From assembly GCF_024331145.1 (NCBI RefSeq), contig NZ_JANDJO010000002.1, forward strand, positions 558,001 to 622,000: a stretch of DNA of 64,000 bases. Reading direction: 5' to 3'. The notes beneath the pieces are model-generated. The model worked only from the letters and a program-made list of their open reading frames with translations, ran no database searches and had not been told where the DNA came from. Origin of the DNA: Shimia sp. CNT1-13L.2 (GTDB lineage: Bacteria > Pseudomonadota > Alphaproteobacteria > Rhodobacterales > Rhodobacteraceae). The position numbers and the translations under genes are program-made. Below are positions 2,878-46,529 of this stretch, in pieces (the stretch's first letter is position 1; every line of letters begins with the position of its first letter).

Positions 2878-4251
2878 ATGCAAGCCACCGCCATCATCGG
2901 GATATTTCTGTTCATCATCGTTGCCAGCCTTCTTGCGGCACCGCGCCGGGCGTCGGTTGCGGGGTTCTTTGGCGGAATGGGCGCGACGGGCGCGGCGCCG
3001 GGGCTGTGGACACTGGTTCTAAGCCAGGTGACGACGTGGATTTTTGCCCGGTCGCTGATGAATTCGGCGATCCTTGGTTACTACTACGGGATTGCGGGCG
3101 TTCTGGCCTATGCGGCTTACTACGGATCGTTCCTGACCGGCGGCTATATCGTGGGCCGGATGCGCCAGCAGGGCGCGCGGTCGGTGCAGGACTGGCTGGT
3201 TGACCGGTTCGGCACGGTTGGCACCGGCTGCTATAACCTCGTGATCGCGCTGCGCCTGTTGTCCGAGGTCTTTGCCAACCTGATCGTCGTTGGTCTGATC
3301 TTTTCGGCGGCCCTGCCGGAAGTGGCATGGGCCAAGGATGGCGCAATCCTGATCGTGGGCGCGCTGGCGCTGGCCTATTCGGCGTGGGGCGGCTTGAGCG
3401 CGGCGCTGCGTACGGATGTGGTGCAGATGGTTCTGTTTCTCGGCGTCTTCGGTGTTGCTTTCCTTGCGCTGATCCTGAGCCCCGGTTTTGACATTGGTGC
3501 GGTTCTGACTGCCGAGGGGGCTTCGGGGGGGTACAACGGCTGGGTGCTGCTGCTGGTGGCCTTTCTTCAGGTGTTTTCCTATCCGGTGCATGATCCGGTG
3601 ATGATGGACCGCGGGTTCCTTGCGGATGAGAAGACAACGAAAAAGAGCTTTCTGCACGCCTTCTGGATTTCGGCGCTATGCATCATCGGGTTCGGGTTTT
3701 TCGGCATTCAGGCGGCGCTGGACGGTGCGGCCTATGAGGGACAGTTGATCGGGACATGGGGGGCGACACTGCCGGCGTGGGTCTTCGTGGCGCTGCTGGT
3801 GTCCCTTTTGGTGTCGGCCCTGTCGACGCTGGATTCGGCGCTGTCCTCTGCGGCACGGCTGGTGGTGGAAGAGTTGCGCCTTGCGCCGCGCAGCCTGAAT
3901 GGCGGGCGGCTGGCGATGCTGGTCTTTGCGCTGGCGGGCGGTGCGCTGACGCTTTGGGGCAACCAGACCCTGTTTGACGCGGTGGCCGTCAGCGGCACGG
4001 CGTCGATGTTCCTGACACCGGTTCTGGTGGCCGGGCTGATCGGCGCGCGCCATGTGGCGGTTTGGGCCTATGTGGTCAGCTTCGTTGCGGCGATGGCGGG
4101 CGCGGCGGCCTATTTCTTCCGTGGCACCGAGGCCATGGCGGCGATCCTGTATGACGGCCACAAGTACGAACAGCTTTTGCAGATCTGTATCGTGGTGCTT
4201 GCCGTGGGCTTTGCGGCGGTGCTGGCGGGGTCGCGTAGGGTTGCGAGCTAG
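2878..4251 (+). CDS. Sodium:solute symporter family (SSS) permease
   Basis: A 457-residue integral membrane protein with about 12-13 hydrophobic segments spread along the whole length, typical of the SSS (SLC5-like) family. These carriers couple solute uptake to Na+ entry at the inner membrane. The frame is open from a GTG at 2812, but the ATG at 2878 is preceded by AGGACAAAGGA and begins directly with the first membrane segment (ATAIIGIFLFIIVAS), so 2878 is preferred. The segment LVSALSTLDSALSSAARLVVEEL (about 315-337) matches the conserved SSS helix containing the Ser/Thr sodium-site residues. The substrate is unknown. An ABC ATPase follows 65 nt downstream on the same strand. Confidence 0.85.
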   Translation: MQATAIIGIFLFIIVASLLAAPRRASVAGFFGGMGATGAAPGLWTLVLSQVTTWIFARSLMNSAILGYYYGIAGVLAYAAYYGSFLTGGYIVGRMRQQGARSVQDWLVDRFGTVGTGCYNLVIALRLLSEVFANLIVVGLIFSAALPEVAWAKDGAILIVGALALAYSAWGGLSAALRTDVVQMVLFLGVFGVAFLALILSPGFDIGAVLTAEGASGGYNGWVLLLVAFLQVFSYPVHDPVMMDRGFLADEKTTKKSFLHAFWISALCIIGFGFFGIQAALDGAAYEGQLIGTWGATLPAWVFVALLVSLLVSALSTLDSALSSAARLVVEELRLAPRSLNGGRLAMLVFALAGGALTLWGNQTLFDAVAVSGTASMFLTPVLVAGLIGARHVAVWAYVVSFVAAMAGAAAYFFRGTEAMAAILYDGHKYEQLLQICIVVLAVGFAAVLAGSRRVAS

Positions 4252-4279
4252 GCGGGGGGCTGCTAAGGGTCAGAAAATT

Positions 4280-4296
4280 CCGATGGTTTTCATCGG
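4280..4296 (+). other. Small hairpin between symporter and ABC gene
   Basis: A perfect 6-bp inverted repeat CCGATG/CATCGG with a five-base GTTTT loop in the 65-nt gap. No T-tract follows it. It may be a weak attenuator or mRNA-processing structure, or may mean nothing. Confidence 0.35.
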
Positions 4297-4316
4297 GCAT
4301 TGACCAAGAGGCAGAC

Positions 4317-5408
4317 GTGACCGACCCGATCCAGAGCCCGCATCCCCGTCTGGAAATCCGCAACCTGAAGCGCCGGTTCGGTGACCGGCAGGTGGTGGAT
4401 GGCGTGTCGCTGACCATTCAGCCGGGGCATGTGACCTGTCTTCTGGGGCCTTCGGGCTGTGGCAAGTCGACGACGCTTCGGATGATTGCCGGCGTCGACA
4501 TGCAGGATTCCGGTGAGATCTATGTGGATGGTGAGCTGATCTGCGACACGGTTTTCCGGATTCCGCCGGAACGCCGCAAGATCGGGCTGATGTTCCAGGA
4601 TTTCGCGCTTTTCCCGCACCTGAGCGTGGCGGACAACGTTGCTTTTGGTCTGAAGGGGCCGAAAGAGGAAAAGCGGGCGCGGGTTGAAGAGCTGCTGGCC
4701 AAGGTGAACCTTGGCTGGACCATCGACAAGTTTCCCCATGTGTTGTCTGGCGGCGAACAGCAGCGGATCGCGCTGGCGCGTGCCCTTGCGCCGCGTCCGC
4801 GTATCATGCTGATGGACGAGCCGTTTTCCGGGCTGGACAACCGTCTGCGTGATGGCATCCGCGACGAGACGCTGGCGGTTCTCAAGGAAGAGGATACCGC
4901 GGTTCTTCTGGTGACGCACGAGCCGGAAGAGGCGATGCGGATGGCGGACGAGATCGCGCTGATGCGGGATGGCAAGATCGTTCAGCAGGGTGCCCCCTAT
5001 AACATCTACAATGCGCCCGTGGACAAAGCGGCGGTCGCATTCTTCAGCGATGTCAACGTGATCCGTGGCGTGAGCAACGGTGCTCTGACCGAAACCCCCT
5101 TTGGCCAGTTCCTGACACCGGGTCTGGAAGATGGGGCGGCGGTCGAGATCGTGATCCGTCCGCAGCATCTCAAGCTGGATTTCGACCGTCATGGCAAGGG
5201 GCCGATGCCCACCGCCACGGATGGGGTTGCGGCGCGGGGCGTGGTCAAGCGCGCGCGTTTCATGGGCAACGAGAGCCTTGTGGAATTCGTGATGGACCAC
5301 GACGGATCGGAGTTGAAGGTGACGGTTCCGAACGTCTTCATGCCCAAGGCGGGCACGCCGCTGTGGCTGACCATTCGCCGTGACCGGTGTTTCGTCTTCC
5401 CGGCCTAG
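4317..5408 (+). CDS. ABC transporter ATP-binding protein (Fe3+/spermidine-like importer class)
   Basis: A 363-residue ATPase. Walker A GPSGCGKST is near 45-53, the Q-loop is in LMFQDFALFPHLSV, the signature LSGGEQQRIALARAL is near 143-157, Walker B IMLMDEPFSGLD near 163-174 and the switch His in LLVTHEPEEA. After about 240 there is a TOBE-like C-terminal region (IVIRPQHLKL). This architecture is that of FbpC/PotA-type importers. No permease or binding protein is adjacent; the neighbour is a sodium symporter, so the partner permease must be encoded elsewhere. The start is GTG with AGAGGCAG upstream. The stop TAG shares CTAG with the stop of the convergent WYL gene. Confidence 0.83.
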   Translation: MTDPIQSPHPRLEIRNLKRRFGDRQVVDGVSLTIQPGHVTCLLGPSGCGKSTTLRMIAGVDMQDSGEIYVDGELICDTVFRIPPERRKIGLMFQDFALFPHLSVADNVAFGLKGPKEEKRARVEELLAKVNLGWTIDKFPHVLSGGEQQRIALARALAPRPRIMLMDEPFSGLDNRLRDGIRDETLAVLKEEDTAVLLVTHEPEEAMRMADEIALMRDGKIVQQGAPYNIYNAPVDKAAVAFFSDVNVIRGVSNGALTETPFGQFLTPGLEDGAAVEIVIRPQHLKLDFDRHGKGPMPTATDGVAARGVVKRARFMGNESLVEFVMDHDGSELKVTVPNVFMPKAGTPLWLTIRRDRCFVFPA

Positions 5409-6088
5409 GCCGAGTAATCTTCCAGCCGTTTTCCCGGTTCGTCCACGAACAGGCCGGGCAGGACCGTGACCTGTTCGATCTGATCAGCCCGGAGCGTGGC
5501 AAAGCCATCGGTGGTGTCGCACCAGACAAGGCAGGTCCAGACTCGTCCCCAATAGTCGAGTTTCAGGGGGCGCACGTCGCGCAGGCTCTGGTCCTGCATG
5601 GTGAGGCGCAGTTTCTGGCGGTTTCGAATGGCGCTGCGCAGGGTGGTGAGGTGGCGGAAGCCATAGGCCGCGTCGGCGAAGGGATAGACGGCAAAGCCGA
5701 AGGACGCCGGCGCGCCGTGGCGATCTTCGGGCAGCACGGCGTCAATCTTGGCCGAGAGGGTCTTGGCGGCCTCCTGCAGCTCACCATCAACCCCGTTGCC
5801 GACGGCGGCCAGACCAAGGTGCAGGGCCTCAAGCTCGGTCTCGGTGAGGTTTAGCGGGGGCAGGGTGATGGCGGCGCGGGCGGAATAGCCGATGCCGCGT
5901 TCGCCTTCGACCGGAACACCCGATGCGGCCAGCGTGTCCATGTCGCGGTAGATGGTGCGGATCGACACTCCGAGATCGCGTGCCATGTCTTCGGCGCGGT
6001 GCAGTTTTCCGTCTTTCAGGATTTCGATCAGCGAATAGAGGCGGTCGGAGCGTTTCAAAGGAGTGATTCTCTGTCGGTTTTTTCCCAT
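5405..6088 (-). CDS. WYL-domain transcriptional regulator (YafY/DeoR-like)
   Basis: A 227-residue protein. An N-terminal winged HTH (about 9-60: RSDRLYSLIEIL, then DLGVSIRTIYRDMDTLAASG) is followed by a ligand-sensing WYL region in which the expected tract reads LKLDYWGRVWTCLVWC near 185-200. WYL regulators typically bind nucleic-acid or nucleotide ligands, or regulate single neighbouring genes. The frame is open to a TTG at 6115, but the ATG at 6086-6088 (MGKNRQRITPLKR) is the sensible start. Four TGACA repeats lie immediately upstream and are a likely operator. It is convergent with the ABC gene, with overlapping stops, and divergent from tatA. Confidence 0.85.
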   Translation of the reverse strand: MGKNRQRITPLKRSDRLYSLIEILKDGKLHRAEDMARDLGVSIRTIYRDMDTLAASGVPVEGERGIGYSARAAITLPPLNLTETELEALHLGLAAVGNGVDGELQEAAKTLSAKIDAVLPEDRHGAPASFGFAVYPFADAAYGFRHLTTLRSAIRNRQKLRLTMQDQSLRDVRPLKLDYWGRVWTCLVWCDTTDGFATLRADQIEQVTVLPGLFVDEPGKRLEDYSA

Positions 6089-6091
6089 TAC

Positions 6092-6126
6092 TGACAAAAA
6101 TCTGACAACTGACAAGCTGTTGACAA
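6092..6126 (-). promoter_or_regulatory. Candidate WYL operator: TGACAA direct repeats
   Basis: The pentamer TGACA occurs at 6092, 6103, 6110 and 6121 on the plus strand. The spacing is 11-7-11, so two pairs each 11 bp apart repeat with an 18-bp period. The array lies 4-38 bp upstream of the WYL regulator ATG and about 135 bp upstream of tatA. Position and helical spacing suggest autoregulation by the WYL protein; binding is inferred. Confidence 0.5.
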
Positions 6127-6261
6127 AACTCGTGCCAGAATCCGCTCAAAAAGGGGGGATACGGGCGGATTTGGCGCTTTCCGTTCCCTTGGCGAAGTTT
6201 TATTTAGGGCAGGTAATTCCCGAGGCGGCGCGGGTCCGCCCCGATGTATAGGAGACATACC

Positions 6262-6480
6262 ATGGGTATCGGAAATATCGGCCTTCCCGGCCTTCTTTTG
6301 ATCGCAGTTGTCGTGCTGGTGCTTTTCGGGCGCGGCAAGATCTCGGGCCTGATGGGCGAAGTGGGCAAGGGTATCACCTCGTTCAAGAAGGGCATCAAGG
6401 AAGGTGAAGACCAGCTGGAGCAGGAAGCTGCTGATGCAGCCAAGGACGTGACCCCCGAAGAAGACAAAGACAAAGTCTGA
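6262..6480 (+). CDS. tatA: Sec-independent protein translocase TatA
   Basis: A 72-residue protein. One N-terminal membrane helix (residues about 4-21, LPGLLLIAVVVLVLFG) ends in the conserved Phe-Gly, followed by an amphipathic helix (LMGEVGKGITSFKKGIKE) and a short acidic tail. TatA oligomers form the protein-conducting element of the twin-arginine pathway at the inner membrane. The start at 6262 is chosen over an upstream in-frame ATG because TAGGAGA sits 7 nt before it and MGIGNIGLPG is the family N-terminus. First gene of tatABC; tatB begins 18 nt downstream. Confidence 0.96.
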   Translation: MGIGNIGLPGLLLIAVVVLVLFGRGKISGLMGEVGKGITSFKKGIKEGEDQLEQEAADAAKDVTPEEDKDKV

Positions 6481-6498
6481 TAGGGGGGCTGAAGCGCC

Positions 6499-6984
6499 AT
6501 GTTTGATCTCGGTATGGCCGAGCTCCTGGTGATCGGCGTGGTTGCGCTGATTGTTGTGGGGCCAAAGGATTTGCCGATCCTGTTCCGTCGTGTGGGCCAG
6601 TTTGTCGGCAAGGCCAAGGGCATGGCGCGCGAGTTTTCCAGCGCCATGAACCAGGCGGCTGACCAGGCGGGCGTGAAGGATGTGACTGACACGCTCAAGG
6701 GCGCGACGCAGGGCATGAACAAGATCGCCAACCCGCTGCAGACGGCGGCGGATGCGGTCAAGGACACGGCCAAGTCGGCGGTCGACATCAATCCTGACAG
6801 CGAGACCGGAAAGCTTGCGGCCAAGCGGGCGGAAGACAACCGCAAGGTCAAGGAAGCGATGGAGAAGAAGGCGCAGGAGCGTCTTGAGACCGAGGCCAGG
6901 GAAGCCGAAGAGGCGGCCGCCAAGGCACGCGCCCGCGCCGAGGCCGCGCGCAAGAGCAGCGAAGCAACAGAGGATGAGGCATGA
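6499..6984 (+). CDS. tatB: Sec-independent protein translocase TatB
   Basis: A 161-residue protein with the TatB N-terminus MFDLGMAELLVIGVVALIVV and the conserved GP turn (VGPKDLP), then an amphipathic helix (RRVGQFVGKAKGMAREF). The C-terminal half (about 90-161) is a highly charged, Ala/Glu/Arg-rich helix, predicted coiled coil. With TatC it forms the receptor for twin-arginine signal peptides. Its stop overlaps the tatC start by 4 nt. The Liv-type binding protein at 54450-55787 carries a twin-arginine signal and is a probable client. Confidence 0.95.
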   Translation: MFDLGMAELLVIGVVALIVVGPKDLPILFRRVGQFVGKAKGMAREFSSAMNQAADQAGVKDVTDTLKGATQGMNKIANPLQTAADAVKDTAKSAVDINPDSETGKLAAKRAEDNRKVKEAMEKKAQERLETEAREAEEAAAKARARAEAARKSSEATEDEA

Positions 6985-7931
6985 GTAGCCAAGACGACAT
7001 CGACGATACGTCCGCGCCGCTCATCGAGCACCTTGCGGAACTGCGTACGCGCCTGATCCGGTCGGTTCTGGCCCTGCTGGTCGGTGTCAGCATCTGCTTT
7101 ATCCCGATCGGTGGCGATTTTATCGCCGTGCATATCCTGAACTTCCTGCTGGCCCCGATCGAGGCCTCGTTGCGGGCGCTGGGGGATCCTTCGCCGACGC
7201 TGCAATATACCTCGCCGCAGGAGTACCTGTTCACCCTGTTTCGCATTTCGCTTGTCTTTGGCTTTGCCATGGCCTTTCCGGTCATTGCCTTCCAGATGTG
7301 GCGGTTCGTGGCACCGGGGCTTTATCGCAATGAGCGGGGGGCGTTCCTGCCCTTCATGATTGCCTCGCCTTTCATGTTCCTGCTGGGCGCGACCTTTGCG
7401 CATTTTGTCGTGACACCGCTGGCGATGGCCTTTTTCCTTGGCTTTGCCGATGTGAGTTCGATCTTTGCCAACCTGATGTCGGGGGCAACGCCGGAAGTGC
7501 CGGGCGAAGTGGTTGCCGTGCCTGAAACGCAGGAAGGTATCCGCGTGACCTTCTTTGGTAAGGTCAATGAAAGCCTTGATATCACGTTGAAATTCATCCT
7601 GGCCTTTGGCCTGTGTTTCCAGCTTCCGGTGCTTTTGACCCTGATGGGCAAGGCCGGCCTGGTGAGTGCGGATGGCCTCGGCAGCGTGCGGAAATACGCG
7701 ATGGTTGGCATCCTGGTGCTGGCCGCGCTGGTGACGCCGCCGGATGTGGTGACCCAGCTGATCCTGTTCACCGTGGTCTATGGTCTTTACGAGGTGTCGA
7801 TCTTCCTCGTGCGTCGGGTCGAGAAGACCCGCAAGGCCAAGCTTCAGGCCGAGGGTGTGTGGTTCGAGGATGAGGAAGAAGAGTTCGACGATCCGCTGAT
7901 GAAGGAATTCGACGAGGACGACAAGAAATAG
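6981..7931 (+). CDS. tatC: Sec-independent protein translocase TatC
   Basis: A 316-residue polytopic protein with the family N-terminus (PLIEHLAELRTRLIRS) and about six membrane helices. The conserved first periplasmic loop contains SPQEYLFTLFRISL, and FGLCFQLPVLLTLMGKAGLVS lies near 205-225. It recognises the twin-arginine motif and scaffolds the Tat complex. It is longer than E. coli TatC (258) because of a loop around residues 160-190 (VPGEVVAVPETQEGIRVTFF) and a charged, very acidic C-terminal tail. Last gene of tatABC, followed by a rho-independent terminator. Confidence 0.95.
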   Translation: MSSQDDIDDTSAPLIEHLAELRTRLIRSVLALLVGVSICFIPIGGDFIAVHILNFLLAPIEASLRALGDPSPTLQYTSPQEYLFTLFRISLVFGFAMAFPVIAFQMWRFVAPGLYRNERGAFLPFMIASPFMFLLGATFAHFVVTPLAMAFFLGFADVSSIFANLMSGATPEVPGEVVAVPETQEGIRVTFFGKVNESLDITLKFILAFGLCFQLPVLLTLMGKAGLVSADGLGSVRKYAMVGILVLAALVTPPDVVTQLILFTVVYGLYEVSIFLVRRVEKTRKAKLQAEGVWFEDEEEEFDDPLMKEFDEDDKK

Positions 7932-7955
7932 GCCCTGTTGAGATGAGATGGAAAG

Positions 7956-7981
7956 ACGCGCCGGAGACGGCGCGTTTTTTT
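7956..7981 (+). terminator. Rho-independent terminator of tatABC
   Basis: Perfect 7-bp stem ACGCGCC/GGCGCGT with a six-base loop, followed by a run of seven T. It sits 25 nt after the tatC stop in the right orientation. Confidence 0.88.
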
Positions 7982-8040
7982 ATGTGTGGAAGCGTGGGGG
8001 CACGAGCCTGGATGCTGCGTTCGGGGGAGGGGGCAGGTGC

Positions 8041-8074
8041 CTCCGGCGGGAGTATTTGGCGTGCATTGAAGCGA
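8041..8074 (+). repeat. 33-nt intergenic element, copy 1
   Basis: Starts CTCCGGCGGGAGTATTT and continues after a short variable stretch with GTGCATTGAAGC. It matches copies at 12741 and 19853 with only 2-4 differences and no gaps. The 5' part can form a CTCC/GGAG mini-hairpin followed by a T-rich stretch. This copy lies between the tatABC terminator and the DUF815 gene. Confidence 0.75.
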
Positions 8075-8166
8075 GGGGGCTTCGAGTGCGGAAGGGTGCG
8101 TCTCTGGCTTGCCGAGGCTGTCGGAACGTGGTTTGACAAGCGTCAGAGAATGATGGAGGCCAGAAC

Positions 8167-9006
8167 ATGGATGAGAGCGCGTTGACCCGCATTGCCGAGG
8201 CGTTGGAACGGATGTCGCCGGCACCGATGGCGGCCCCGGATTTTGCGGCTGCGGATGCCTTTGTCTGGCATGTTGCGCCGGACCGTCTTGAGCCGGTGGC
8301 CAAGGTGAACCGCGTTGATCTGTCCCTGCTGGTCGGAGTGAACCGGTCGCGGGACACTCTCTTGGAGAATACCCTGCAATTCGCACGCGGTCTGCCGGCC
8401 AACAACGCCCTGTTGTGGGGCGCGCGCGGGATGGGGAAATCCTCGCTTGTGAAGGCGGTTCATGCCGAGGTGCTGCGCCAGGGGCTGGGGTTGAAGATCG
8501 TGGAATTGCAGAGAGAAGACCTTCCCAGCGTGTCGCGCCTGTTGAACCTGTTGCGCGACAGCGGCGAGCGGTTCCTCTTGTTCTGTGATGACCTGTCGTT
8601 CAGCCATGACGACCAGCACTACAAGAGCCTCAAGGCGGTACTGGATGGCGGGATCGAGGGGCGGCCTGACAACGTGGTCTTTTATGCCACGTCGAACCGG
8701 CGTCACCTGATGCCGCGTGACATGATCGAGAATGAACGCTCTTCGGCGATCAACCCGTCGGAGGCGGTGGAGGAGAAGGTCTCGCTTTCGGACCGTTTCG
8801 GGCTGTGGCTGGGCTTCCATCCCTGTTCGCAGGATGAATATCTCGAGATGATCCGCGGCTATTGCGGGGAATATGGTGTCGAGATCGACGAGGAGACGCT
8901 CTGGGCGGAGGCCATCGAATGGCAGGCCACGCGCGGGTCGCGGTCGGGTCGGGTGGCCTGGCAGTATTTCACCGATCTGGCCGGACGGCGCGGCGTGACG
9001 ATCTGA
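8167..9006 (+). CDS. DUF815 family AAA-type ATPase
   Basis: A 279-residue P-loop protein. Walker A GARGMGKSS is at residues 85-93, with a Walker B-like segment FLLFCDDLSF near 138-147 and an arginine-rich sensor region SNRRHLMPRDM near 178-188. This matches the DUF815 family found throughout Rhodobacterales next to tat and nlpD genes. The cellular role is not established. The ATG has AGGCCAG upstream. It is convergent with the nlpD-like gene across a 37-nt gap holding a strong hairpin. Transcribed separately from tatABC, which has its own terminator. Confidence 0.85.
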   Translation: MDESALTRIAEALERMSPAPMAAPDFAAADAFVWHVAPDRLEPVAKVNRVDLSLLVGVNRSRDTLLENTLQFARGLPANNALLWGARGMGKSSLVKAVHAEVLRQGLGLKIVELQREDLPSVSRLLNLLRDSGERFLLFCDDLSFSHDDQHYKSLKAVLDGGIEGRPDNVVFYATSNRRHLMPRDMIENERSSAINPSEAVEEKVSLSDRFGLWLGFHPCSQDEYLEMIRGYCGEYGVEIDEETLWAEAIEWQATRGSRSGRVAWQYFTDLAGRRGVTI

Positions 9007-26690: not shown

Positions 26691-26709
26691 GGCTGACCGA
26701 GGGTCAGCC
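26691..26709 (-). terminator. Hairpin over the pyrE stop codon
   Basis: Perfect 8-bp stem GGCTGACC/GGTCAGCC with a three-base loop overlapping the pyrE stop. On the minus strand a T5 run follows only 13 nt later, so it is a possible but imperfect terminator. Confidence 0.4.
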
Positions 26710-27384
26710 TTTCTTGTTGGCTTCCTGCCATTCGCGGGGCGATTTCAGGAAGTTTTCAACCTCTGCAAGGGTTTCCTCGGAAAAGGCCTTTTGGGCGCGG
26801 GCTTCGGCGAGGACGTCCCACCAGGTGCAGAGATAGTGCAGATCAACGCCGTGATCGCCCAGTGTCTTCGTGGTTTCCGGGAAGATGTCGTAGTAGAAGA
26901 TCACCGCGGTGTGGCCACAGGTGGCACCGGTGTCGCGAATGGCGTCGACGAAGCTCAGCTTGGAGCCGCCGTCGGTGGTGAGGTCTTCGACTAGAAGGAC
27001 GCGTTCGCCTTCGCTCATGGCGCCTTCGATGCGGGCGTTCTTGCCATAGCCTTTGGGTTTCTTGCGCACGTAGGTCATGGGCAGGGCCATGCGTTCGGCC
27101 ACCAGCGCGGCAAAGGGGATGCCCGCGGTTTCGCCACCGGCGATGTTGTCGAAGGCCTCGAAGCCCGCGTTGCGCATGACGGTGACGGTCAGGAAGTCCA
27201 TCAGCGTGCTGCGGATGCGCGGGAAGGAGATCAGCTTGCGGCAGTCGATGTAGGAGGGCGATGGCAGGCCGGAGGCCAGGGTGTAGGGCTCATCGGTGTT
27301 GAAGTTCACCGCGCCGATTTCCAGCAGCATACGCGCGGTCAGGCGGGCAATTTCTTCTTGCGAGGGATAAGAGGTGGGGATCAT
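26704..27384 (-). CDS. pyrE: Orotate phosphoribosyltransferase
   Basis: A 226-residue enzyme converting orotate and PRPP to OMP. The PRPP-binding signature [14 protein letters not shown] lies near 126-139, and the catalytic-loop lysines are in [15 protein letters not shown] near 106-120. The C-terminal [29 protein letters not shown] is usual for alphaproteobacterial PyrE. The gene is separated from pyrC by a two-gene insertion and a strong hairpin. Confidence 0.95.
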
Positions 27385-27448
27385 ATCTGGCTCCGGTGTT
27401 TTCCGGTTACATATCGCAGATCTTTCGGGAATGAGAAGACTAGAAACG

Positions 27449-27482
27449 GAGTCACGGCAGACTTGTTGGTCTGCCGTGACTC
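27449..27482. terminator. 14-bp perfect hairpin between pyrE and the inserted genes
   Basis: GAGTCACGGCAGAC and GTCTGCCGTGACTC form a 14-bp perfect stem with a six-base loop. The T-rich tail (TTTAGTTTTT) is on the plus strand; on the minus strand CGTTTC follows. It lies 35 nt past the stop of the 99-residue protein and 65 nt before pyrE. Confidence 0.75.
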
Positions 27483-27517
27483 TTTAGTTTTTGAAGGCCC
27501 GGTTCAGATCCGGCGGC

Positions 27518-27817
27518 TCAACCAGAGTCTGAGGGATTTGTAATCGTGTTTTGTTCGCTGGATTGTGCCTTGCCCGTGAGACTGGTGATCATGGTCGACA
27601 TCTGGGTAAGCGCGGACCCAAAGAAAAACCCGATGATAATGCCGCCCCAGTCCTTTATTTCAGGTGGCGTCTGGACCGAATTATCCTTGTATATTATTGC
27701 GTACAGCGGAATGAGTGTGGCGCTGCCAATGATAAGAATGGCCAATAATCCTGAGATTGCAGTTTGCCAAATCAGAATTCGGGCAATCGAATTTTCGATT
27801 GGTTTGGGCGTACTCAT
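27518..27817 (-). CDS. Small two-helix membrane protein, unknown
   Basis: A 99-residue protein with two membrane segments, about 14-40 (IWQTAISGLLAILIIGSATL onward) and 58-76 (WGGIIIGFFFGSALTQMS), joined by a loop containing YKDNSVQTPPEIKD, plus a polar tail. Its start overlaps the stop of the 387-residue gene by 4 nt, so the two are one transcription and translation unit. GC content is visibly lower than the flanking pyr genes. No family recognised; a membrane partner for the secreted upstream product is an inference. Confidence 0.72.
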   Translation of the reverse strand: MSTPKPIENSIARILIWQTAISGLLAILIIGSATLIPLYAIIYKDNSVQTPPEIKDWGGIIIGFFFGSALTQMSTMITSLTGKAQSSEQNTITNPSDSG

Positions 27818-28977
27818 TCACTACTCCTTTTTTTGAAACAACGGTACATATCCGCGAAATGACGACTGCACCGGCGGGTGTTTGATCCGCATATTTTGGT
27901 GAGATGCTCGTCGAAGGCTTCACTGGAAAGTCCAGAGGTCGTTGGATCGCACTTCGTCGTTTGGACGACGGTCTGGTAGGTTACCATGATGTCGGAATGT
28001 GGCTTTGTATTGTATGTATCGTCAGCTTTGACGAGAAAATCATAAGACGCGAAAAACTGGGACAGGCATTCGTTCCGGTCGTATTCGACTGTGATTTGAC
28101 TGCAGTAGTTAATGAAATCCTTGGCAATGAATCCAGCGTTGCGGTTTTTGTCTCTGACGTATTTAGTGCGCTGTTGGTATAGAAAGCGAAGTGTGGACCA
28201 GTAGTTCCGACGGAATTCCGGTTGGCCAAAGGCGTATTGGCTCAGACTGATCTTCTGCATGCCAAGCAGGATCTCTTTGGCGGCGTTGGTACCGCCCTCG
28301 GTGGAGGTATCGCCGAGAACCACCGTTCTGATTTTGCTGGCGATACCTTGTGCGTCGGGGTTGTGAATTTGGAAATAATGCTGGTGTTGGAGCCGGCCCA
28401 GTGGGGCGGATCTGGCCAAAAGTTTCGCAGTCAAGACACCAATGCCGCGATAATGATCGGAGTCAAAGGGGCGTTTCAGCAAAGAAATGAAGTCGTTTTC
28501 TCTTTTCCGTAGTACCGCCTCGGTTGACGAGAAGGAATCCACATCCTTCTCGATCTCGTTCAGGCGATTGCTGAAATAATTTTTGGACGTATCAAGTCCG
28601 CGCAATGCAAAAAACTGATTTTGTTCAGCGACTTCTGCGGCTGAAAACACGTCACAGGGTTCGATAATAGCCAAGCTGATATCCAACGACTTGTCCACGA
28701 ACCTAAAGCAGATGATTTTAGCGCCCTGAGGCACGTTGGCGGCATTTACTCTGCCTTTTACGCGACCTCCGCCTATGGTGGCCTCTAGCTGACCTGCGTA
28801 GAGTTCGGACTGATCATTGTCTTGAAGGCTATAGATGAGTTTCAGGCTGTCCCCGGAGACTATGGCGGTCAGGACATCGCTGGCCGGGGCGTCAAAGCCA
28901 ATGCCTCTTACTTCAGCTCCTGCAGAAAAAGCCGATAGCAAGATCAGTGCAGCAGGGACCGCTGGGAAAACGCGCAT
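27814..28977 (-). CDS. Secreted Cys-containing protein of unknown function
   Basis: A 387-residue protein with a signal peptide (MRVFPAVPAALILLSAFSAGA, cleavage after AGA). The first mature part (22-110) reads as a beta-rich domain with a Cys pair (IICFRF, EPCDVF). Residues 120-330 are largely helical and charged. The C-terminus has clustered cysteines (NYCSQ, NECLSQ, TKCDP, KICGS, RRCSRH, YRCFKK), suggesting disulfides in the periplasm. It is cotranscribed with the two-helix protein. Codon use and GC are below neighbours, consistent with acquisition. I recognise no family. Confidence 0.75.
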   Translation of the reverse strand: MRVFPAVPAALILLSAFSAGAEVRGIGFDAPASDVLTAIVSGDSLKLIYSLQDNDQSELYAGQLEATIGGGRVKGRVNAANVPQGAKIICFRFVDKSLDISLAIIEPCDVFSAAEVAEQNQFFALRGLDTSKNYFSNRLNEIEKDVDSFSSTEAVLRKRENDFISLLKRPFDSDHYRGIGVLTAKLLARSAPLGRLQHQHYFQIHNPDAQGIASKIRTVVLGDTSTEGGTNAAKEILLGMQKISLSQYAFGQPEFRRNYWSTLRFLYQQRTKYVRDKNRNAGFIAKDFINYCSQITVEYDRNECLSQFFASYDFLVKADDTYNTKPHSDIMVTYQTVVQTTKCDPTTSGLSSEAFDEHLTKICGSNTRRCSRHFADMYRCFKKRSSE

Positions 28978-29143
28978 CTGGAAATCTCAAAAGTGATGAC
29001 AAAAATCGGAGGAAGTTTGCCAAGATTTTGAAAGCATTTCAACCTAAGCGCGGTGTTTCAGTTCTACTACCGTACTTGTGAGTGCCTGCCGATCCATTTG
29101 AAGCGCGAAATAGACGGGTTGTCCCAAAGCGGATTGAGCTCTC

Positions 29144-30184
29144 TCAGCCTACGCTCCAGTAGAGCGGGAAGCCGGGGTCGAAGACGGTGACGGTGTGCTC
29201 GCCCGCCTGCAGGGCGTTGGGGTAGGTCACTTCGGTGTCGCCCTTGGTCAGGGTGATGGTGTCCGTGTTGACCGGCAGGCCGTAGAAGGCGGGGCCGTGC
29301 AGGGAGGTGAAGCCTTCGAGCTTGTCCAGCGCGCCGGCCTGTTCGAAGGTCTGGGCGAGGATCGACAGGGCGTTGGGGGCGGTGAAACAGCCCGCGGCGC
29401 AGCATTCGGCCTCTTTGGCGTGGGTCGGGTGCGGGGCGCTGTCGGTGCCGAGGAAGAAGCGCGTGTCGCCCGAGGTGGCCGCGGCCAGCAGGGCTTCGCG
29501 GTGTTCGCGGCGTTTCAGGATCGGCAGGCAGTAATAGTGCGGACGCATCCCGCCCACCAGCATGTCGTTGCGATCCAGGATCAGGTGCTGGACCGTGATC
29601 GTCGCGCCGAGGTCCTTATCGTTGGCCAGTACATAGTCGGCACCGTTCTTGGTTGTGATGTGCTCCATCACGACGCGCAGGCCCGGTGTGGCCTTGCGGA
29701 TCGGGTCGAGGACGCGGTCGATGAACACGGCTTCGCGGTCGAAGATGTCGATCTCGCGGTCGGTCACTTCGCCGTGAACACAGAGCGGGCAGCCGATCTC
29801 GGCCATCTTCTCGAGTACGGGGCGGACCTTGTCGAAGTTGGTGACACCCGAGGAGGAATTGGTGGTGGCCCCGGCCGGGTAGAGCTTGACCGAGGTGATC
29901 AGGCCGCTGGCGTGGGCGGCGGCGAGGTCTTCGGGATCGGTGTCCTCGGTCAGGTAGAGCGTCATCAGCGGCTGGAAGGTCATGCCTTCGGGCAGGGCGG
30001 CCATGATGCGCTCGCGGTAGGCGGCGGCCTGTGCACCGGTCACGACGGGTGGAACCAGGTTCGGCATGACGATGGCACGGGCAAAATGGCGGGCGGTTTC
30101 TGGCAGGACGGTCTGCAGGATGGCGCTGTCGCGCAGGTGCAGGTGCCAGTCGTCGGGGCGGGCGATTGTCAGGGTGGTGCTCAT
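29144..30184 (-). CDS. pyrC: Dihydroorotase
   Basis: A 346-residue class II (E. coli-type) enzyme cyclising carbamoyl aspartate to dihydroorotate. The HxH metal site is in [11 protein letters not shown] (9-19), and the carboxylated Lys is in [17 protein letters not shown] near 99-115. LCVHGEVTD and the catalytic Asp in FLGTDSAPH are present. The length matches E. coli PyrC (348). A 166-nt gap separates it from the inserted secreted-protein gene; in related genomes pyrE is expected close by. Confidence 0.95.
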
Positions 30185-45047: not shown

Positions 45048-45194
45048 GTTGTTGGACAGTTTGTCGCTAATTTTCATTGAGCTTTCCAACGATTTTTAAC
45101 CGTTGGCAATTCCGATGCGGTTCGATCTGAGCTAAGAATTCTGCAATCCACCTTTGGTAGAGTGATTGTTCTGAGATTTTTGTAGAGGTTGAAA

Positions 45195-46529
45195 TTGGAC
45201 CCAGTTGCGATTGGTTTGATAGTATGGATGCTCAGCGCTCCCGTTTTTCTTGTTCTCTGGTTGCGAAGCCATTTTAGGCGGAAGCGAGCCTTGGGAGAAC
45301 TCGAACGGTTCGCGGAAATAGTTTCCATTGAAAAGGAAGTGGTCAAGAAGAAGCATGAGGTTGAGGCACTGGAGACCGACATCGAAACTCTTCAGGCAAC
45401 TTACGGCGAAAAGAAAAAATATCTTGATCAGCTATTAGAGCAGGTAGCTGTCTATGATGACCGCTTGGCCTTTGCTGAACTGGGAATGTATGAGCCACAT
45501 TTCGAGTTTGGGGATAGCGAACAGTACAAAGACCAAATTAAGAAAGTACGAACCCTTCAAAAGGCGATGGTCTCGGCAAAAGAGGCGACGATCTGTCCGG
45601 CTGATTGGACGGTTGAAGGGAGCCGTGCCAAAGGGCAGACAATGATCAACCGTCAATCGCGCTTGACGATGCGGGCTTTCAACAATGAGTGTGAGGCCGC
45701 AATCGCCAATACCAGATGGAACAATGTGGTTGCGATGGAAAAGCGCATCCTGAACTCGGCTAAAGCAATTTCAAGAGAAAACACCTCTCTCCAACTGAGC
45801 ATCAATGACGCCTACGTCGCGTTGAAGATCGACGAGTTACACTTGACGCACGAGTATCGTGAGCAGCTAAAGATCGAAAAGGATGAACGCGCCGAACTTG
45901 CCAGGGTTGAAAGAGAAGAAAAGAAGCTGGCAGCTGAGGCAAGAGCGGCGGAAAAAGAAGAGATGAAATATCAAGCGCTCTTGGAAAAAGCGCGAAGAGA
46001 AGCAGGCTCTGATGAGGTTAGTGACAGCTTGAAGCAAAAAATCCACGATCTCGAGAGCGCTTTGGAAGAGGCGCGCGCGACCTCTGAGCGCGCACGCGCA
46101 ATGGCGGAAATGACTAGGTCAGGGTATGTGTATGTAATTTCCAATGTGGGATCGTTTGGAGAAGAAATGGTTAAGATTGGCCTGACGAGGCGTCTCGACC
46201 CTGGTGACCGTGTTCGCGAACTGGGAGACGCGAGTGTTCCGTTTGGTTTCGATACACATGCCATGATTTATTCAGAAGAGGCGCCAGCCTTGGAAGCTGC
46301 TCTACACAAAGAGTTCTCAGAACAACGCGTCAATATGGCCAACATGCGGAAGGAATTCTTTCGCGTGTCCCTTGACGAAGTGGAAGACGCTGTTGCGCGA
46401 CTTGCTCCAGATGCTGACTTCTTCAAGGACAGAGAAGCGCAGGAGTGGCACGAAACCTTGGCAAGGCGGAAGGAGAAATTGCAAGAGGTCGCTCCATCCG
46501 AACTTGAAGCGCTGCCCGCCGCAATTTGA
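45195..46529 (+). CDS. DUF4041-type coiled-coil protein with GIY-YIG (T5orf172) nuclease domain
   Basis: About 444 residues. An N-terminal membrane helix (about 3-22) is followed by coiled coil (35-95), a DUF4041-like central part (HFEFGDSEQYKDQIKKVRTLQ), a long charged coiled coil (215-300), and a GIY-YIG-like domain near 307-400. GYVYVISNV and MVKIGLTRRLDP stand for the GIY and YIG strands, with LEAALHKEF supplying the Glu and NMRKEFF the Asn region. The start is non-ATG: a TTG at 45195 has AGAGG 6 nt upstream, and TTG 45189 and ATG 45228 are alternatives. Low GC, solitary, bounded by terminators. Homologues occur in phages and genomic islands; a nuclease or defence role is inferred. Confidence 0.78.
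   Translation: MDPVAIGLIVWMLSAPVFLVLWLRSHFRRKRALGELERFAEIVSIEKEVVKKKHEVEALETDIETLQATYGEKKKYLDQLLEQVAVYDDRLAFAELGMYEPHFEFGDSEQYKDQIKKVRTLQKAMVSAKEATICPADWTVEGSRAKGQTMINRQSRLTMRAFNNECEAAIANTRWNNVVAMEKRILNSAKAISRENTSLQLSINDAYVALKIDELHLTHEYREQLKIEKDERAELARVEREEKKLAAEARAAEKEEMKYQALLEKARREAGSDEVSDSLKQKIHDLESALEEARATSERARAMAEMTRSGYVYVISNVGSFGEEMVKIGLTRRLDPGDRVRELGDASVPFGFDTHAMIYSEEAPALEAALHKEFSEQRVNMANMRKEFFRVSLDEVEDAVARLAPDADFFKDREAQEWHETLARRKEKLQEVAPSELEALPAAI

Follow-up and report, generated by a model that had tools for sequence, protein, structure and literature searches.

What occupies the DNA between pyrC and pyrE in Shimia sp. CNT1-13L.2, and what might it do for the cell? We analysed a 64,000-nucleotide stretch of contig NZ_JANDJO010000002.1 (positions 558,001 to 622,000, hereafter the window), in which a 1.76-kb block of about 50% GC separates the two genes and encodes a signal-peptide protein (S) and a small membrane protein (M). 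The S-M block between pyrC and pyrE is an insertion. Our best reading of its sequence is a compact, foreign-looking cassette that was acquired horizontally, and of the S-M pair in general an uncharacterised module that apparently moves horizontally. With roughly even confidence, we propose that S-M forms an inner-membrane-anchored periplasmic scaffold module.

A pyrC search over 40 genomes matched 29, including the own genome and all 23 congeners. pyrC and pyrE are neighbours in 22 of the 23 congeners, with 30-91 bases between the tblastn ends and S-M absent; the 23rd (G020) is cut by a contig end. The two genes are also adjacent in all three outgroup genomes that carry both on the fetched stretch (L026-L028). 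The preliminary description had inferred an insertion, a claim that would fail if the pair were common in relatives; the pair was absent from 22/22 congeners with both genes. The GC content of S (0.503) and M (0.473) lies below that of the remaining window (0.624), and the 1.5-kb windows across the block belong, like those at a second dip near 45 kb, to the lowest of the 64-kb stretch. For a target-site duplication, the relatives' junctions are too divergent to fix the insertion ends. No sigma-70-like promoter was found on the minus strand of the pyrC-S spacer, which, when searched in 31 genomes, gave only short matches besides itself (E-value, E, 0.02 or worse); the DNA between M and pyrE likewise has only short matches elsewhere. 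Between hairpin and pyrE (~27417-27441), a stretch of 14-24 bases has near matches elsewhere in the own genome and in a few congeners, and could represent a small repeat or chance.

The organisation of the locus is given in the table. The S stop and the M start overlap by 4 bp (ATGA), and the GGAG lies six bases 5' of the M start codon. In the hairpin, 14 perfect pairs enclose a 6-nt loop; the 121 nt around the hairpin fold with z = -4.98, equalled by 0/200 shuffles. Its T-rich tail is on the plus-strand side (TTAGTTTTTG), and on the strand of the S and M genes the tail reads CGTTTCTAGT; the hairpin is therefore a two-way or weak terminator at best. Most of what had been described earlier for this locus was borne out: intact pyrE and pyrC by the NCBIfam equivalog models, a block with a signal-peptide gene and a two-helix gene by the open reading frames (ORFs), translational coupling by the overlap and the GGAG, the hairpin by folding, and the drop in base composition by the GC values above. 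No mobile gene had been seen, and none lies between pyrC and pyrE. The label "Cys-rich" for S was overstated, as 8/387 residues are Cys.

Features of the pyrC-pyrE locus, in the order of transcription of S and M (window coordinates)
Feature	Position	Strand	Basis
pyrC, dihydroorotase, upstream flank, intact	29144-30184	-	NCBIfam equivalog TIGR00856, E 8.9e-128
Spacer, pyrC stop to S start, 166 bp	28978-29143	-	located between ORFs
S, 387 aa, predicted Sec-type signal peptide	27814-28977	-	ORF and hydropathy
GGAG, likely ribosome-binding site for M, within S 3' end	27824-27827	-	sequence
M, 99 aa, two predicted hydrophobic helices, WGGIIIGFFFG in second transmembrane helix (TM2)	27518-27817	-	ORF, hydropathy and motif
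Perfect 14-bp hairpin in M-pyrE gap, resembling a terminator mainly on + side	27449-27482	.	fold
pyrE, orotate phosphoribosyltransferase, downstream flank, intact	26704-27384	-	NCBIfam equivalog NF001729, E 4.3e-117

Searches with window M alone matched 22 of 194 genomes at E <= 0.1, of which the own genome and two convincing relatives (G053 and G059; E 4e-7 and 2e-6) were kept; in both relatives M follows a signal-peptide gene with a 4-bp overlap. The remaining 19 genomes (12 congeners, 3 of the family, 4 of the class; E 0.007-0.09) were left out as a group for low score. A three-row M profile found 7/394 family genomes (own included) and seven loci in genome_contigs, two of which (L112 and L113) encode the same proteins as G053 and G228. 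A twelve-row profile detected one viral contig (L122; window M alone had no match in viral contigs) and 4/371 order genomes (own included), with one new locus, G845; in 385 class genomes it matched only the window and G563. Altogether, 14 distinct M loci were identified: the window, G053/L112, G059, G228/L113, G382, G421, G437, G845, Yoonia maritima (L114), Rhodobacteraceae F11138 (L115), Roseibium aggregatum (L116), a Rhizobiaceae metagenome-assembled genome (MAG; L117), Paracoccus amoyensis (L118) and the phage contig L122. G563 (E 3e-6 and 8e-4) was not counted, as its frames lack WGG and an exported-looking protein follows instead of precedes. On its reverse strand (L123, ~5497-8476), two tandem small membrane-type frames carry IVG[FI]YFG without WGG, and behind each lies an exported-looking protein; by eye, these two proteins belong to one family. 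G563 may be a distant relative with reversed order.

The pair was sought elsewhere with conserved order, as had been suggested, and in 13 of the 14 loci M is immediately preceded, on the same strand, by an S of 387-452 aa. The two genes overlap by 4 bp in six loci and by 8 bp in one, and are +1 to +24 bp apart in the other six, with start codons picked by eye for L108, L111, L115, L122 and L127. The local-alignment scores of S and M covary (Mantel test, Spearman rho 0.80, 0/10,000 permutations), and the pair is therefore inherited together, whether this covariation reflects common descent or direct co-adaptation, between which the test does not distinguish. M is the more conserved partner (mean column identity 37%, against 28% for S), and the nearest relative of window M is the Paracoccus M (43% identity). 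All 13 S-paired M proteins carry WGGxIIGF[YF]FG, which contains a fully conserved glycine zipper (GxxxGxxxG) in TM2; this helix is moderately hydrophobic and has no conserved charged residue inside. The N-terminus of all 13 S proteins is hydrophobic, and beyond it no 19-residue stretch exceeds a hydropathy of 1.39. By eye, window S starts with a Sec-type signal peptide; none of the first 30 residues is Cys, and past the signal no segment reaches the hydrophobicity of a transmembrane helix. With its two transmembrane segments and the motif in M, and a signal-peptide S of the ~390-450-aa kind directly upstream on the same strand, the window pair shows two defining features of the S-M module.

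The genomic settings of the cassette are unrelated. The window copy lies between pyrC and pyrE, the Paracoccus copy after a gyrB/parE-type gene (S 39% GC, flanks 60%), and the G845 copy between peptide deformylase-like and aminotransferase-like genes (names by eye). In L122, an uncultivated phage fragment, S, M and an SBP_bac_3 gene (3022-5277) lie between gpA terminase and lambda-type portal genes. Because the same kind of pair occupies unrelated genome places and one phage, we infer that S-M is a real but unstudied cell-envelope module. F11138 and G382 (L110) carry S, M and a TPR gene near a ccmF-like gene (by eye), possibly a settled chromosomal home of one group of cassettes (group B, below). 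Not all cassettes are GC-poor, as the GC of S is within 0.02-0.04 of the flanks in G437, G421 and G382. At the Roseibium locus (L116, 5914-6945), M abuts, tail to tail, an opposite-strand 246-aa signal-peptide-like protein without a Pfam match (E <= 0.01); the insert has a GC content at third codon positions of ~0.3 against ~0.8 in its neighbours, and is therefore read as another two-gene low-GC insert.

Nine of the 13 S-M loci have a third gene after M, which encodes an SBP_bac_3 protein in five (L114, L108, L113, L122 and L127) and a TPR protein in four (L115, L111, L100 and L110). Most of these proteins begin with a signal-like sequence by eye. No third gene was recognised in the window, Paracoccus, the Rhizobiaceae MAG or L112. 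SBP_bac_3 occurs in 5/6 loci of group A (Yoonia, G053, G437, G228, the phage contig L122, and G845, which joins by blastp at E 4e-55 to G437) and TPR in 4/4 loci of group B (F11138, G059, G382 and G421). A strong hairpin 3' of the last cassette gene was seen in the window only, with weaker ones in 4/11 other stretches; the terminator is therefore no general part of the cassette.

Groups A and B of S are homologous over their full length (hhalign E 6e-13), and the Rhizobiaceae S is weakly linked to their joint profile (hhalign E 0.007). An AlphaFold2 model of the Yoonia S (group A, five-row alignment) reached a predicted local distance difference test score (pLDDT) of 85.5 and a predicted template modelling score of 0.75, with strands at residues 25-138 followed by helices at 139-400. 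The low-confidence model of window S has the same order of strands and helices, to which we attach little weight.

Neither protein of the window found a home in the family libraries. In Pfam, NCBIfam, PHROGs and PADLOC, window S and M matched nothing at better than E 0.14; the novelty proposed earlier, which would fail if the 387-residue protein belonged to a characterised family, was thus not refuted. The other M and S members scanned had none better than E 0.0013, and none was consistent across the family; L122 and G845 were left out of all these scans, Pfam was run on five S proteins, and PADLOC took the window M as its sole M. Matches set aside as too weak were phrog_24259 (1/12 M members; best E 0.0013), phrog_1544 (4/12; best E 0.002), MARVEL (E 0.0022) and RhtC (E 0.004) for M, and phrog_34021 (1/11; E 0.017) and an AlkZ-like match (E 0.044) for S. 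No TPR model of Pfam matched any of the five S proteins. Against PDB sequences, the best E was 0.25 for S, none was found for M, and the group A/B S profile reached 0.0088. Searches of open-licence PubMed Central (PMC) papers found nothing on the motif, the pyrC-pyrE junction or this gene combination. Window S itself matched nothing at E <= 0.001 in 146 other genomes and only three doubtful sequences (E 0.03-0.06) in 393 others, two of which were unrelated by context and the third of which, with three TGA stops, was set aside. It had no match in genome_contigs, plasmids, phages or viral contigs, and plasmids also gave none for window M, Yoonia M, Yoonia S or Paracoccus S.

Taken together, these data suggest a working model for the S-M module. 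Its basis, namely gene order, overlap, motif conservation, joint divergence and sporadic distribution, is observed, and the export signal of S and the two membrane helices of M are predicted from sequence only. S would be exported by Sec, lose its signal peptide and fold in the periplasm into an N-terminal beta domain and a TPR-like helical solenoid, as modelled for the Yoonia S and extended here to window S. M would be translated from the end of S and enter the membrane as a helical hairpin whose two tails probably lie inside; M copies may pack via the glycine zipper of TM2, and the periplasmic turn of M (P..L.NW) may dock S. The fast-evolving S could serve as a specificity or client-binding scaffold, wherein the conserved M would hold S at the inner membrane and probably pass a signal or form the membrane-active part. 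In related loci, the third protein, an apparently exported SBP_bac_3 or TPR protein, would add ligand or client binding, and the cassette would ride as cargo between housekeeping or phage genes.

Several observations weigh against this model. Roseibium aggregatum carries M without an S of this kind beside it. Between window S and each of the two main S groups, hhalign detected no significant similarity (E 0.24 and 0.28). Its global alignment with the Paracoccus S gave z 3.6 (1/300 shuffles as good), a weak signal and the highest among 11 comparisons, followed by G053 (z 2.3, 6/300). Six Cys of the Paracoccus S coincide with six of the eight Cys of window S (4/20,000 random placements as close), in a test picked after the pattern had been seen. 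hhalign gave no link between these two proteins (E 0.35), and normalised local scores place the S of F11138 closest to window S (0.028), with Paracoccus outside the four nearest. Therefore, homology of M between the window and the other loci is firm as judged from sequence, and that of window S to other S proteins is tentative. Structure prediction, which had been suggested, was confident for the Yoonia S, and window S did not fold (pLDDT 35.9). The helical part of the Yoonia model aligns with TPR solenoids (LGN, 4wne, Z 12.1, root-mean-square deviation 7.0 over 218 residues), where for helical repeats a Z of ~12 may reflect a common arrangement only. Foldseek found no PDB match for it at E <= 0.001 (best 1.1e-3), and template modelling scores (TM-scores) were low, 0.10-0.33 by query. 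Three BFVD matches fell below E 0.001, two gamma-SNAP-like and one phage glycosyltransferase, with TM-scores of at most 0.30; the best, gamma-SNAP-like (2.0e-4, TM-score 0.22/0.28), was taken as solenoid likeness only. The earlier suggestion of an uncharacterised envelope module is thus well supported as an architecture, because the pair recurs elsewhere with conserved order, and is qualified by the tentative homology of window S.

Alternatively, S-M may be superinfection-exclusion or anti-phage cargo, in which S, in the periplasm, would detect or stop incoming phage material, with M as the membrane component or effector, like moron-type exclusion proteins. The position of the L122 cassette among phage structural genes would fit this use, as would the sporadic spread in family and order, the low-GC S-M beside the gyrB/parE-type gene in Paracoccus, and a DUF4041-T5orf172 protein resembling the anti-phage nuclease SNIPE in the same window. 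Carriage by a phage as an added cassette holds for L122; the neighbours of the window pair are pyrC and pyrE. However, L122 is the single phage locus found, and 50,697 phage records had no match for window S, Yoonia S or Yoonia M. The similar ccmF-adjacent setting shared by F11138 and G382 looks like a settled chromosomal set. PADLOC matched neither the window pair nor any of 11 S scanned, and no known exclusion domain was recognised. We consider this use of the module unlikely, if worth keeping in mind; it overlaps with the scaffold model, since the latter describes an architecture and the former a use of it. Going further, S-M, alone or with SBP or TPR, might represent a new phage-spread class of envelope defence, wherein a variable periplasmic scaffold recognises a phage component and gates a shared glycine-zipper effector, a conjecture that we consider unlikely.

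M could also oligomerise into a pore or channel with S as its periplasmic lid or sensor, such that stress opens the membrane. The invariant GxxxGxxxG of TM2, the stronger conservation of M and the close translational coupling in the window would fit a gated pore. Yet plain helix packing also uses glycine zippers, and the moderate hydrophobicity of TM2, with no conserved charge inside, does not favour a channel. We consider a gated pore improbable. Similarly, a secreted and a small membrane protein in one coupled cassette, with a fast-diverging S and a sporadic spread, recall a toxin S and its membrane immunity protein M. Immunity proteins usually follow their toxin in divergence, whereas M is the conserved partner; moreover, the Yoonia S models as a scaffold, no toxin domain was found in the S proteins scanned, no exporter adjoins the window pair, and the third genes encode binding proteins, all of which make a toxin-immunity pair distinctly improbable. 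Finally, loss of an ancestral S-M pair from the relatives, for which one might cite that the search took one genome per species, is scarcely credible given the 22/22 congeners and 3/3 outgroup genomes without the pair at the junction, the lack of a convincing S match in the 146 and 393 other genomes, and the low GC of S-M.

The scaffold model for S-M accounts for an otherwise anonymous insertion between pyrC and pyrE and offers a small, directly testable system. The pair has no convincing match in the family libraries searched, yet across 13 loci, from alphaproteobacteria and one phage, its order is kept and its partners covary. An 11-residue membrane motif that hardly varies, joined to a fast-diverging periplasmic scaffold, is what one would expect of a variable sensor whose membrane part is fixed.

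Several known systems invite comparison. The window also encodes, at 45189-46529 on the plus strand, a 446-aa protein that matches DUF4041 (E 7.8e-16) and T5orf172 (E 4.9e-18) and has, by eye, a hydrophobic helix at its N-terminus; its gene lies at the second low-GC dip and adjoins a purA-like gene (by eye). Its layout agrees with that of SNIPE, a membrane-bound anti-phage nuclease (PMC13190303). Phage moron exclusion proteins such as HK97 gp15, which appears as a title in the references of PMC13190303, resemble S-M by description in having a small membrane protein and, in L122, a cargo cassette among phage structural genes. In contrast, S-M is chromosomal in 13/14 loci as far as seen, and M is coupled to a large exported S in 13/14. 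The Cdz system of contact-dependent killing in Caulobacter, according to PMC5380434, shares with S-M an alphaproteobacterial host, GxxxGxxxG proteins, a small membrane protein and horizontal spread. In Cdz, the zipper lies in secreted toxins of 84-86 aa that use a type I exporter (PMC5380434), whereas in S-M it is the membrane protein that carries the zipper, and the exported S has 387-452 aa and a Sec-type signal. The window pair thus does not match a Cdz-type bacteriocin with its immunity protein, where a small glycine-zipper toxin is secreted through a dedicated type I exporter: window S has 387 aa and a Sec-type signal, and the neighbours of the pair are pyrC and pyrE. TPR and TPR-like periplasmic solenoids, among which BamD, PilF and MamA appear in the fold lists, resemble S in that the helical half of the Yoonia S aligns with them. 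BamD and PilF are outer-membrane lipoproteins, whereas the signal region of window S lacks Cys. S further differs from these solenoids by an extra, barely tested N-terminal beta domain and by a dedicated partner with two transmembrane helices.

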